From a virus: 26,023 nucleotides of DNA. The stretch spans positions 1 through 26,023 of IMG/VR virus record IMGVR_UViG_3300035162_001372; one strand, given 5' to 3'. This document shows positions 15,320-25,079 of this stretch, in pieces (the first letter of the stretch is position 1; each line of letters opens with the position of its first letter). The notes beneath the pieces are model-generated. The model did no database searches, was not told the DNA's origin, and saw nothing but the letters and a program-made list of their open reading frames with translations. A program made the position numbers and the translations under genes.

Positions 15320-15338
15320 TTACTCTCTCCATATATAA

Positions 15339-15344
15339 TTTATA
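15339..15344 (-). promoter_or_regulatory. Candidate -10-only promoter before the replication operon
   Basis: On the minus strand TATAAA (15344-15339) sits between the upstream terminator and the helicase TTG. No -35-like hexamer lies 16-18 bp upstream. The box is exactly 10 bases after a GGC that is followed by the terminator T run, the same arrangement as at 24911-24929. It may be an activator-dependent or late-type promoter, or merely AT-rich sequence. Confidence 0.35.
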
Positions 15345-15349
15345 GCAAT

Positions 15350-15379
15350 AAAAAGCCAGAGTGGGGCCTCACGCCCCAC
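15350..15379 (-). terminator. Hairpin terminator after the Myb-like repeat gene
   Basis: A perfect 7-bp stem GTGGGGC/GCCCCAC with a 5-base loop (15361-15379) is followed on the minus strand, after six bases, by five T residues (15354-15350). It lies 23 bases beyond the stop of the 240-aa gene. The gap between stem and T run makes it imperfect, so partial read-through into the helicase operon is plausible. Confidence 0.65.
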
Positions 15380-15401
15380 CCCAGCAGGGGGAACTAAGGG
15401 A

Positions 15402-18564: not shown

Positions 18565-18593
18565 ATTATGAGGGCATTTCGGTAAAATGTCAA
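18565..18593 (-). promoter_or_regulatory. Sigma70 promoter for the ligase N-terminal half
   Basis: Minus strand: -35 TTGACA (18593-18588), 17-bp spacer, -10 CATAAT (18570-18565, one mismatch), preceded by AAAAATAGTTC. The TAG in this upstream box is the stop codon of the PC4-like gene. Confidence 0.9.
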
Positions 18594-18596
18594 GAA

Positions 18597-18875
18597 CTAT
18601 TTTTGATATAGCTCTCGAATAATGTCTCCGAAATGTTCCTCTAGTACTTGTTTACTCTCTGCTAGAGATAGAATCTCCGCCATAGCAATAAACAATTCTT
18701 TTGAGGTTTCGACTTCAAGAGGGATAGAAAGACCTTTATTAGAGGGCTTCCACTCTTCATCAAAATCGAGAAAGTACTCCCGAAAATGAAGATATTCTTC
18801 CTCTCGAAACTCATTCACCGTTAGGCGAACCTGTCTATAAGGTTCAGATACGATAATTTTCGAGTATGCGTCCAT
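18597..18875 (-). CDS. PC4-like single-stranded DNA-binding protein
   Basis: The central segment from R17 to about residue 55 matches the PC4/p15 fold pattern: VRLTVNEF, then HFREYFLDFD, then W42-K-P-x2-KG48-L-S-I-P-L, corresponding to the PC4 R-E-Y ... K-P-x2-KGI-x-L core. PC4 proteins form dimers that bind single-stranded DNA; phage T5 encodes a homologue implicated in recombination-dependent replication. A C-terminal helix follows. I use the ATG at 18875, which overlaps the previous TGA (TGATG) and has GAGGA upstream; the in-frame TTG one codon earlier is less likely. Length is 92 aa. Confidence 0.8.
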   Translation of the reverse strand: MDAYSKIIVSEPYRQVRLTVNEFREEEYLHFREYFLDFDEEWKPSNKGLSIPLEVETSKELFIAMAEILSLAESKQVLEEHFGDIIRELYQK

Positions 18876-19138
18876 CAATCATTCCTCAGCACTGTGGATA
18901 AGGGCACGACCGATGTAACATTGTCAGCTTTCATAAGGCGAAAGGAATCTGTATCCCAACAAAACATTAGGACAGTTTCTTCATCTTCTTTCGCTCTATT
19001 TTTCTTGTCTTGAATATAAGGAGTGGAGAAGTCAATAGTACAAACATTGTACTTTGTCTTACGGGAGTTTGGGCTCCTATAAGTTATTACTGCATCTCCA
19101 GCACTCGTTATTTTCTTTCTTAGCTCGTCTTTTTTCAC
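18875..19138 (-). CDS. Small basic protein, SH3-like beta-barrel (DUF2693-like)
   Basis: This 87-aa protein begins MKKDELRKKITS and ends LMFCWDTDSFRLMKADNVTSVVPL. The closing pattern, a Trp-containing strand followed by an FR-x-M/I-x2-D/N-x-V strand, resembles small phage SH3-fold proteins (DUF2693-type). The function is unknown; a nucleic-acid-linked role is likely from its neighbours. The start is GTG (19138-19136) with GGAG six bases upstream; the ribosome site directly follows the base of an RNA hairpin (19151-19188), so folding could affect translation. Confidence 0.72.
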   Translation of the reverse strand: MKKDELRKKITSAGDAVITYRSPNSRKTKYNVCTIDFSTPYIQDKKNRAKEDEETVLMFCWDTDSFRLMKADNVTSVVPLSTVLRND

Positions 19139-19150
19139 TTGTTACTCCAG

Positions 19151-19188
19151 TATTACGTGAGCAAAACCTCTTTTGCTTCATTGTAATA
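19151..19188 (-). other. Two-part RNA hairpin in leader of the SH3-like gene
   Basis: Inverted repeats TATTAC/GTAATA (19151-19156 with 19183-19188, 6 bp) enclose AGCAAAA/TTTTGCT (19160-19166 with 19171-19177, 7 bp), separated by a small internal loop and capped by a 4-base loop (GAGG on the minus strand). On the minus strand the 3' base of the stem lies just before the GGAG ribosome site of the next gene. It is not followed by a T run, so it is not a simple terminator. Confidence 0.6.
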
Positions 19189-19202
19189 TCGTGAACTAAC
19201 AG

Positions 19203-19255
19203 TGGTTGCCCCACGAAGATGGCTGAGCGGCTAAGCGCAACCAAGCTTCGTGGGG
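19203..19255 (-). other. Interleaved perfect inverted repeats (possible switch or processed RNA)
   Basis: Two perfect inverted repeats are interleaved: TGGTTGC (19203-19209) with GCAACCA (19237-19243), 7 bp; and CCCCACGAAG (19209-19218) with CTTCGTGGGG (19246-19255), 10 bp. The order A-B-A'-B' allows alternative hairpins or a pseudoknot. On the plus strand the 10-bp stem is followed by ACTTTTTA, but there is no plus-strand gene here. On the minus strand it follows the 119-aa gene by five bases and has no T run. Its role is unknown. Confidence 0.7.
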
Positions 19256-19260
19256 ACTTT

Positions 19261-19620
19261 TTATGCCGCTACTTTAGCGAGCGCGTCGGCAAAATACTGG
19301 GCAGCTTTGCCCGTCAGCTTAGAAACAATATCTTCGTCAATAGCTACACCAGCATCTGTAAGAGCTGCTGTGAGTGCTTCTTGAGCACCAGCCTTACTGA
19401 TTCGAGTTCCACCAGTAGGGGCAGCTTTAGCACCGCCACTAGCAGCAGGAGTTTTCTTAACATATACCCCAGCTTTTGTTAGAATCATTCGTACACCGTT
19501 AGGGCTTTCACCCATTTCTTCGGCAATACTTTTTACAATTTCCATACTATTTTCTGGAGTTGGTTCTTCGTTCGTGTAGGCTTCGATAGCCTGTGCTTTA
19601 GATTCGTCTGTCCAAGGCAT
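19261..19620 (-). CDS. Myb/SANT-like DNA-binding protein (119 aa)
   Basis: A single N-terminal domain, PWTDESKAQAIEAY ... SIAEEMGESPNGVRMILTKAG (about residues 2-52), matches the repeats of the 240-aa protein at 15402-16124. It is followed by an Ala/Gly/Thr linker with Lys (TPAASGGAKAAPTGG) and a C-terminal helical domain (about 75-119). A DNA-binding or regulatory role is likely. The frame is open to 19737, but that ATG would fall at or before the transcription start expected from the promoter at 19738-19766. The ATG at 19620 has a fine AGGAG seven bases upstream, so I use it; this leaves a leader of about 110 bases. Confidence 0.82.
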   Translation of the reverse strand: MPWTDESKAQAIEAYTNEEPTPENSMEIVKSIAEEMGESPNGVRMILTKAGVYVKKTPAASGGAKAAPTGGTRISKAGAQEALTAALTDAGVAIDEDIVSKLTGKAAQYFADALAKVAA

Positions 19621-19737
19621 CTTTCTGCTCCTGTTAGGTTTAAATGGTAGACCGGCAGCATTGCCTGTCTGGTCAAGTTGTCTCATGTAAAAATTGTAGC
19701 CCACTTTTTTTGGTCTCTTCTCAATCTTTGAAAACAT

Positions 19738-19766
19738 ATTATAAGGGCTTTAGATAAGTATGTCAA
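19738..19766 (-). promoter_or_regulatory. Sigma70 promoter for the Myb-like/PC4-like operon
   Basis: Minus strand: perfect -35 TTGACA (19766-19761), 17-bp spacer, perfect -10 TATAAT (19743-19738). The TGA in the -35 box is the stop codon of the upstream membrane-protein gene. The upstream box is CAATTATTC, slightly different from the AAAAATAGTTC seen in others. The expected start is near 19731. Confidence 0.92.
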
Positions 19767-24887: not shown

Positions 24888-24910
24888 TAATAAACTCTTC
24901 TTTAAGTTAG

Positions 24911-24916
24911 ATTATA
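24911..24916 (-). promoter_or_regulatory. Candidate -10-only promoter before the glycan cassette
   Basis: On the minus strand TATAAT (24916-24911) lies 24 bases before the ATG at 24887, directly after the terminator T run. There is no -35 hexamer at 16-18 bp. The spacing GGC-T run-TATAA is the same (10 bases between GGC and TATAA) as at 15339-15357. It could be an activator-dependent or late-type promoter. Confidence 0.35.
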
Positions 24917-24919
24917 AGT

Positions 24920-24946
24920 AAAAAAAGCCGGACATTTCTGCCCGGC
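24920..24946 (-). terminator. Rho-independent terminator after hsp20 and the 36-aa gene
   Basis: On the minus strand GCCGGGCA-GAAA-TGTCCGGC (24946-24927) forms an 8-bp stem with one G-T pair and a GNRA-type GAAA loop, followed by seven T residues (24926-24920). It starts ten bases after the stop of the 36-aa gene. Confidence 0.92.
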
Positions 24947-24955
24947 CTACCGTTA

Positions 24956-25066
24956 TTAAGCAGAAACGTAGCTTACGGCCATATATGCTAGCGGTGCTGT
25001 TACACACACTAGAATTTGAAATACAGCCTCAAGTACATCCCACTTATCTTTTACGAAGTTCTTCAT
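24956..25066 (-). CDS. Small membrane peptide (36 aa)
   Basis: The ATG at 25066 has GGAGA upstream, and the frame ends ten bases before a terminator. The peptide MKNFVKDKWDVLEAVFQILV... has a short polar N-terminus and a hydrophobic stretch over about residues 13-35, predicting one transmembrane helix. It lies directly after hsp20. No family is recognised. A holin-like, signalling or exclusion role is possible but unsupported. Confidence 0.68.
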   Translation of the reverse strand: MKNFVKDKWDVLEAVFQILVCVTAPLAYMAVSYVSA

Positions 25067-25079
25067 TGAATTCTCCAAG

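Follow-up and report, generated by a model that had tools for sequence, protein, structure and literature searches.

The window analysed here, a stretch of 26,023 bases, is a complete virus record, and its minus strand carries nearly all of its genes, among them those for a DNA polymerase, a DnaB-like helicase, an NAD-dependent DNA ligase, a D3-like DNA-binding protein and a D5-like regulator. The gap described below (19139-19260) accordingly has the minus strand as its coding strand. Its surroundings, in the order D2-like / D3 / phrog_3696 / PC4-like / ligase, are arranged much as in T5-like phages (Demerecviridae) of Proteus and Vibrio. The gene for the D3-like protein (phrog_1725; 19261-19704, minus strand) probably starts at GTG 19704 and not at ATG 19737, since most relatives align from about residue 12 and the -10 box of a promoter ends at 19738. 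This sigma70-type promoter, identified by a promoter scan at 19738-19766 (minus strand; TTGACA-17-TATAAT), matches the consensus at 12 of 12 positions and ends one base 5′ of the first ATG in the D3 frame (19702-19737 region). It is the probable promoter of a unit composed of D3, phrog_3696 and the PC4-like gene. A single transcript of these three genes is the simplest reading, because a perfect promoter precedes D3 and the scan found none within the gap, including the space between its two hairpins. A small RNA had been proposed for the gap in an earlier note on this DNA; the missing promoter between the hairpins argues against it, as does the presence of promoter-like matches in just 4 of the 97 distinct D3-phrog_3696 gaps of relatives. 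A promoter-like sequence before the ligase gene (TTGACA-17-CATAAT, 11 of 12 positions; 18565-18593, minus strand) closes the unit. Searches for tRNA and tmRNA genes in the window returned none.

The gap itself comprises 122 bases between the D3 stop (19261) and the GTG start of phrog_3696 at 19138. Its minus-strand RNA folds with -50.5 kcal/mol, compared to -27.8 +/- 3.8 kcal/mol for dinucleotide shuffles (z = -6.0; 0 of 200 shuffles as low), and this energy lies below that of all 864 sliding 122-nt windows on the minus strand of this stretch. The plus strand of the gap folds well too (z = -4.9), which inverted repeats would lead one to expect. The strongly structured gap of the earlier note is thus real, and so are its parts: a two-part hairpin at 19151-19188, whose outer pairs extend to GGAG at 19148-19145 and hence touch the ribosome site; perfect repeats of 7 and 10 bp interleaved as A-B-A′-B′; and the absence of a T run 3′ of either hairpin on the coding strand. 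The statement that the genome has almost no other gaps was wrong, as intergenic DNA in the window amounts to about 1.2 kb and several gaps measure 140-230 nt. The gap consists of two independent RNA modules and not of one, because some relatives that have no upstream hairpin retain the leader hairpin next to the ribosome site. A read-through of the D3 stop was considered and rejected from the sequence, the frame in the window being shut again about 10 codons further on.

The leader hairpin of the phrog_3696 gene (element 1; 19139-19201, minus strand), a proposed translational operator, was delineated by folding, by covariation and by a covariance model match of 37.3 bits at 19140-19200. It is built from three stacked helices. 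The apical hairpin P3 (19161-19176, minus strand) has the sequence GCAAAA-GAGG-TTTTGC, seen in the fold and in relatives, and is lengthened in the window by the three pairs of TGA 19180-19178 with TCA 19160-19158. P2 (19151-19188, minus strand), identified by covariation in relatives, pairs TATTAC 19188-19183 with GTAATA 19156-19151 and is separated from P3 by loops. The outer pairs P1 (19140-19201, minus strand), based on the fold and on compensatory changes in relatives, consist of TGTTA 19201-19197 with TAACA 19144-19140 plus TTCA with TGGA, and cover part of the Shine-Dalgarno sequence GGAG (19145-19148, minus strand, identified from the sequence) of the GTG start at 19138.

Scans with both flanking proteins yielded 160 loci, to which more were added later, giving 97 distinct gap sequences in the first set and 158 in the extended set. 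The gaps of relatives differ in length, and nearly all of them end in a hairpin beside the ribosome site of phrog_3696. Three alignments (A1, A2 and A10) were made with MAFFT from sequence alone and the structures were taken from folds of the same sequences; as a control the pairing partners were slid, and the cells counted for covariation are sequences and not independent evolutionary events. With this reading of the counts, 91% of cells were paired in A1 (class A, 20 sequences with a GAGG loop) compared to 33-46% in the slid controls, the covariation score was 0.575 compared to at most 0.124, and two-sided changes occurred in nine of 12 pairs, specifically in 5/5 pairs of P2 and 4/7 pairs of P3. 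The GAGG loop was invariant in all 20 of these sequences. A2 (class B, 27 sequences) reached a covariation score of 0.423 (slid controls at most 0.142), and in A10, a third lineage with eight sequences, 100% of cells were paired and 6/12 pairs showed two-sided changes, including all five pairs of the apical helix. Judged from these alignments, the leader hairpin is a conserved RNA structure that is kept by compensatory changes in all its helices. The commonest internal loop between P2 and P3 in the predicted structures, found in 18 sequences, has YAC as its 5′ strand and AAC as its 3′ strand. It occurs in both class A and class B despite the differing helices around it and is the leading candidate recognition site. 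The copy in the window does not have this loop and carries the three additional P3 pairs instead; it is also the lowest-scoring of class A (37 bits compared to 43-64), and is a somewhat divergent member of its family. Two further features were seen in individual gaps. Loci L108 and L119 share, in the same gap, a conserved hairpin loop GTAARGCTCCTAACCCGAGYAG, and an AGGAG upstream could pair with CTCCT as a pseudoknot. In L021 (1361-1433) and L022 a tRNA gene is inserted between D3 and phrog_3696, supported in L021 by an Rfam tRNA match.

The structure overlaps the ribosome-binding site, as Shine-Dalgarno bases lie within P1 and this helix shows compensatory changes in relatives. In eight sequences of 95% identity a CCUUNN/NNAAGG helix includes the start of AAGGAG, is paired in 100% of cells and contains simultaneous two-sided switches from U-A to A-U and from G-C to A-U. 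Sequences of the third lineage hold most or all of AAGGAC within a helix of about 8-11 pairs. The mean pairing probability of the Shine-Dalgarno sequence over all relatives was 0.74 compared to 0.61 after shuffling, a moderate excess; the corresponding values for the window (0.75 compared to 0.51) are not significant alone. A simple complementarity test of the outer helix, with shuffled upstream sequence as the control, was likewise not significant, the shuffled stretches being very short. Masking of the Shine-Dalgarno sequence thus has good support in some lineages; for the window, partial masking is suggested.

Two covariance models (R1 and R2) found one strong match per record, directly before phrog_3696, in records of up to 92 kb. 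All additional matches had E > 0.1 with one exception in Vibrio phage Pontus, and this weak R2 match was attributed to chance since it sits inside a tail gene. One 75 kb record (L160) gave weak matches only. At E <= 0.01, R2 recovered 68 of 74 further loci, nearly all of the matches ending at the start codon and many of the loci being close to the training set. Among GTDB genomes there were four protein matches, all in metagenome-assembled bins that possibly hold phage contigs, and two of them came with an R2 match at the threshold just given. In isolated T5-like phages of Vibrio, Proteus and Salmonella the gap at this position is short and such a hairpin is absent, so the leader switch is not essential to the phrog_3696 gene family. 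Searches against Rfam 15 (4227 families) gave no match in the window at the gathering cut-off, the best hit near the gap at a permissive threshold having E 1.2 and lying far under its cut-off, and the gaps of relatives matched tRNA only. The hairpin has the features of a cis-regulatory leader family, namely a covarying structure with far lower values in slid controls and a fixed place before one gene family. As an RNA family it is new, of a known kind, and has no counterpart in Rfam. The regulatory leader put forward in the earlier note is supported for this one of the two elements, given its compensatory changes, its fixed place before one gene and its paired Shine-Dalgarno bases.

The upstream hairpin (element 2; 19202-19260, minus strand) lies directly 3′ of the D3 stop, in the slot of a terminator, and was delineated by its fold, its covariation and the signature of its flanks: AAAGTCC, then a long nested hairpin, then GGGCAACCAC. 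In plus-strand coordinates, the 7-bp repeat consists of TGGTTGC 19203-19209 and GCAACCA 19237-19243, and the 10-bp repeat of CCCCACGAAG 19209-19218 and CTTCGTGGGG 19246-19255. The form in the clade of the window is AAGTCC - stem - GGCAACCAY. The stem and its nested inner helix covary, with two-sided changes in 8/18 pairs and a score of 0.401 compared to at most 0.187 in slid controls. The 7-bp pseudoknot helix, in the register of the window, was paired in 52.5% of cells and showed no two-sided change. Compensatory changes in both repeats had been named as the check on the proposed structure; they were found for the 10-bp repeat and the nested inner helix and not for the 7-bp pairing. It is therefore very unlikely that the element is an H-type pseudoknot or a two-hairpin switch that regulates the next gene. 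The interleaved repeats and a tail (GGCAACCA) that is invariant across eight distinct sequences fit such an arrangement, but evolution favours the nested hairpin: the inner helix, which is mutually exclusive with the 7-bp pairing, has several compensatory changes and is more stable (-10.3 compared to about -7.8 kcal/mol), no linker spans the 10-bp stem, and the leader hairpin is kept in relatives that have no upstream element at all. A terminator for transcripts of the opposite strand is somewhat less improbable, though we still regard it as unlikely. On the plus strand of the window the stem is followed by ACTTTTTA with a T run of five; against this, relatives have a T run of down to 3-4, no convincing genes run in that direction nearby, and the element was absent from a terminator scan on either strand, though the loop limit of 8 in that scan may exclude it.

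As for termination on the coding strand, no T run follows the stem in the clade of the window, and many relatives have one in this slot. Of 97 distinct gaps, 49 had a terminator-like hairpin in the upstream slot and several were empty there, with the reservation that some obvious terminators escaped this simple scan. A second, distant lineage (L142, L143, L434, L317, L403, L330 and L350) has the same flanks, AAGUCC and GGCA, around unrelated stems; six other flank words returned no match. From sequence, the AAGU of that lineage could pair with AYUU after a CA bulge. A search of all viral contigs with AAAGTCC...GGGCAACCA was set aside, as it returned almost only chance matches and the real ones were at the same locus. 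The upstream element is real and constrained. Our best guess is a role for the D3 message in 3′-end formation, pausing or stability, and the hairpin may also serve in RNA processing, as the earlier note had considered.

Two proteins would be under the control of the leader. The phrog_3696 gene (18875-19138, minus strand) encodes a protein of 87 aa, predicted by AlphaFold2 and structure comparison to be a single-domain WYL/Sm-like barrel. The model has a pLDDT of 94.4 and shows an N-terminal helix followed by a five-stranded barrel, and its nearest PDB structures are the WYL domains of PafBC, BrxR and CapW, with Hfq next. Similarities to the WYL domains were middling (Z up to 6.5, best Foldseek E 0.02) and the product had no Pfam match at E 0.1; WYL/Sm-like is accordingly a predicted fold assignment and not a proof of family. 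A PDB sequence search with the phrog_3696 profile matched designed TIM barrels alone, via short stretches, and was disregarded. The second gene (18597-18878, minus strand), whose start overlaps the phrog_3696 stop by four bases, encodes a PC4-like ssDNA-binding protein homologous to T5 p15 (PF02229, E 1.4e-10, 40.9 bits with a curated cut-off of 25; PDB 4bg7, E 3.2e-13). PDB 4bg7 is a protein from phage T5, and T5 p15 has been predicted to bind ssDNA and to promote recombination (PMC8545432). Binding of ssDNA is known for the WYL domains of PafBC, and binding of ssRNA for some proteins with an Sm fold (PMC11804915). The WYL, Sm and PC4 folds each include cases that bind single-stranded nucleic acid (PMC11804915, PMC8545432).

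Taken together, the two hairpins are in our view best explained as a translational operator of the phrog_3696 / PC4-like pair plus a separate upstream module, a reading that we hold with fair confidence, and the leader hairpin is probably a previously undescribed switch for the phrog_3696 protein and the neighbouring DNA-binding protein. We infer translational control, its sign and its ligand from analogy: a hairpin that holds the Shine-Dalgarno sequence, a nucleic-acid-binding fold and an overlapping gene for an ssDNA-binding protein resemble the autogenous operators of T4 genes 32 and 43 (PMC3014915), which makes autogenous control most likely. One early transcript from the consensus promoter before D3 would bear both RNA elements. 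The leader, which would act in cis, stacks three helices: an A/U-rich apical hairpin, a middle helix set off from it by an internal loop, and an outer helix that occupies part or all of the Shine-Dalgarno sequence. In the closed state the ribosome site would be masked. A ligand recognising the internal or apical loop might keep the leader closed or open it. The likeliest ligand would be the WYL/Sm-like phrog_3696 protein or the PC4-like protein when DNA-free and in excess, comparable to T4 gp32 and gp43, and control would reach the PC4-like gene through the overlapping stop and start. A more specific version is speculative and we give it limited credence: the stand-alone WYL domain might be an RNA-binding autoregulator that senses free single-stranded nucleic acid. 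When no DNA targets are left for it, it would attach to its own leader at the internal loop and switch off both its own production and that of the PC4-like protein; the AAGUCC...GGCA hairpin would be an additional conserved signal, for processing or pausing.

Other explanations of the leader hairpin would do without a switch or without a phage ligand. It could be an element of RNA processing or stability, that is a site for RNase III or RNase E or a protection of the 5′ end after cleavage; its predicted helices of about 11-25 pairs and its location between two genes of one transcript, often behind another hairpin, would agree with this. Processing, however, would require neither the recurring internal loop nor the Shine-Dalgarno pairing, the helices are interrupted and short for RNase III, and the hairpin keeps to the start codon of a single gene, so we consider this explanation improbable. 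Similarly low is the likelihood that the ligand is a small molecule, as in riboswitches, or a host protein such as Hfq or CsrA. The GAGG loop that is invariant in one class and the internal loop that recurs could serve such a ligand, yet the hairpin is small and simple, has no Rfam match and occurs before one gene family only, and no single host factor would fit the apical loop, which varies between classes. That neither hairpin regulates anything, both being incidental structures of the ordinary terminator-like sort, seems the least credible of these possibilities: about half of the distinct gaps do have a terminator-like hairpin in the upstream slot, but the leader hairpin has no T run, sits on the Shine-Dalgarno sequence and covaries over very divergent sequences.

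The proposed translational operator can be compared with several known systems. Autogenous leaders of ribosomal protein operons, e.g. of S15, are small conserved structures that lie at the ribosome site and precede one gene family; they differ in belonging to cellular genes, and often mimic rRNA. The operator of gene 43 in T4 and RB69 is likewise a hairpin, placed ahead of the ribosome site of a gene for DNA replication in a lytic phage (PMC3014915). It is, however, a hairpin of 16-18 bases with a UAAC loop and DNA polymerase as its ligand, whereas the leader described here has three stacked helices with an internal loop, precedes a WYL-like gene and has candidate ligands in the proteins of its own unit. 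The gene 32 leader of T4, T2 and RB69 is an RNA that controls an ssDNA-binding protein, and the unit described here includes an ssDNA-binding PC4-like protein (PMC3014915, PMC535899). In gene 32 the control region is a pseudoknot about 67 nt upstream plus an unstructured A+U-rich repeat region, in contrast to a nested hairpin that reaches the Shine-Dalgarno sequence and is followed by the PC4 gene as the second gene. It is mainly in T4 relatives that phage genes of DNA metabolism are known to have autogenous operators. According to a review of 2010 the gene 32 pseudoknot is perhaps the sole viral example of its kind (PMC3014915). Regarding the protein, PafBC, BrxR and CapW share the predicted fold of the phrog_3696 product, but they are multi-domain regulators with DNA-binding domains and phrog_3696 is a stand-alone domain.

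The RNA family defined by the leader hairpin has been retained throughout a large group of marine T5-like phages, most of them uncultured. It sits on two adjacent genes, one for a WYL/Sm-like protein and the other for a T5 p15-like ssDNA-binding protein. A second case of an operator supported by covariation, in T5-like phages, would permit a comparison with T4 relatives, and it gives phrog_3696, a family of unknown function, a testable role. If true, a WYL autoregulator would be a second way, with no relation to gp32, in which phages match the supply of ssDNA-binding protein to replication. Furthermore, two other gaps of the window have strong predicted folds, with -29.0 kcal/mol in 82 nt at 15320-15401 and -58.5 kcal/mol in 192 nt at 24888-25079, both on the minus strand.
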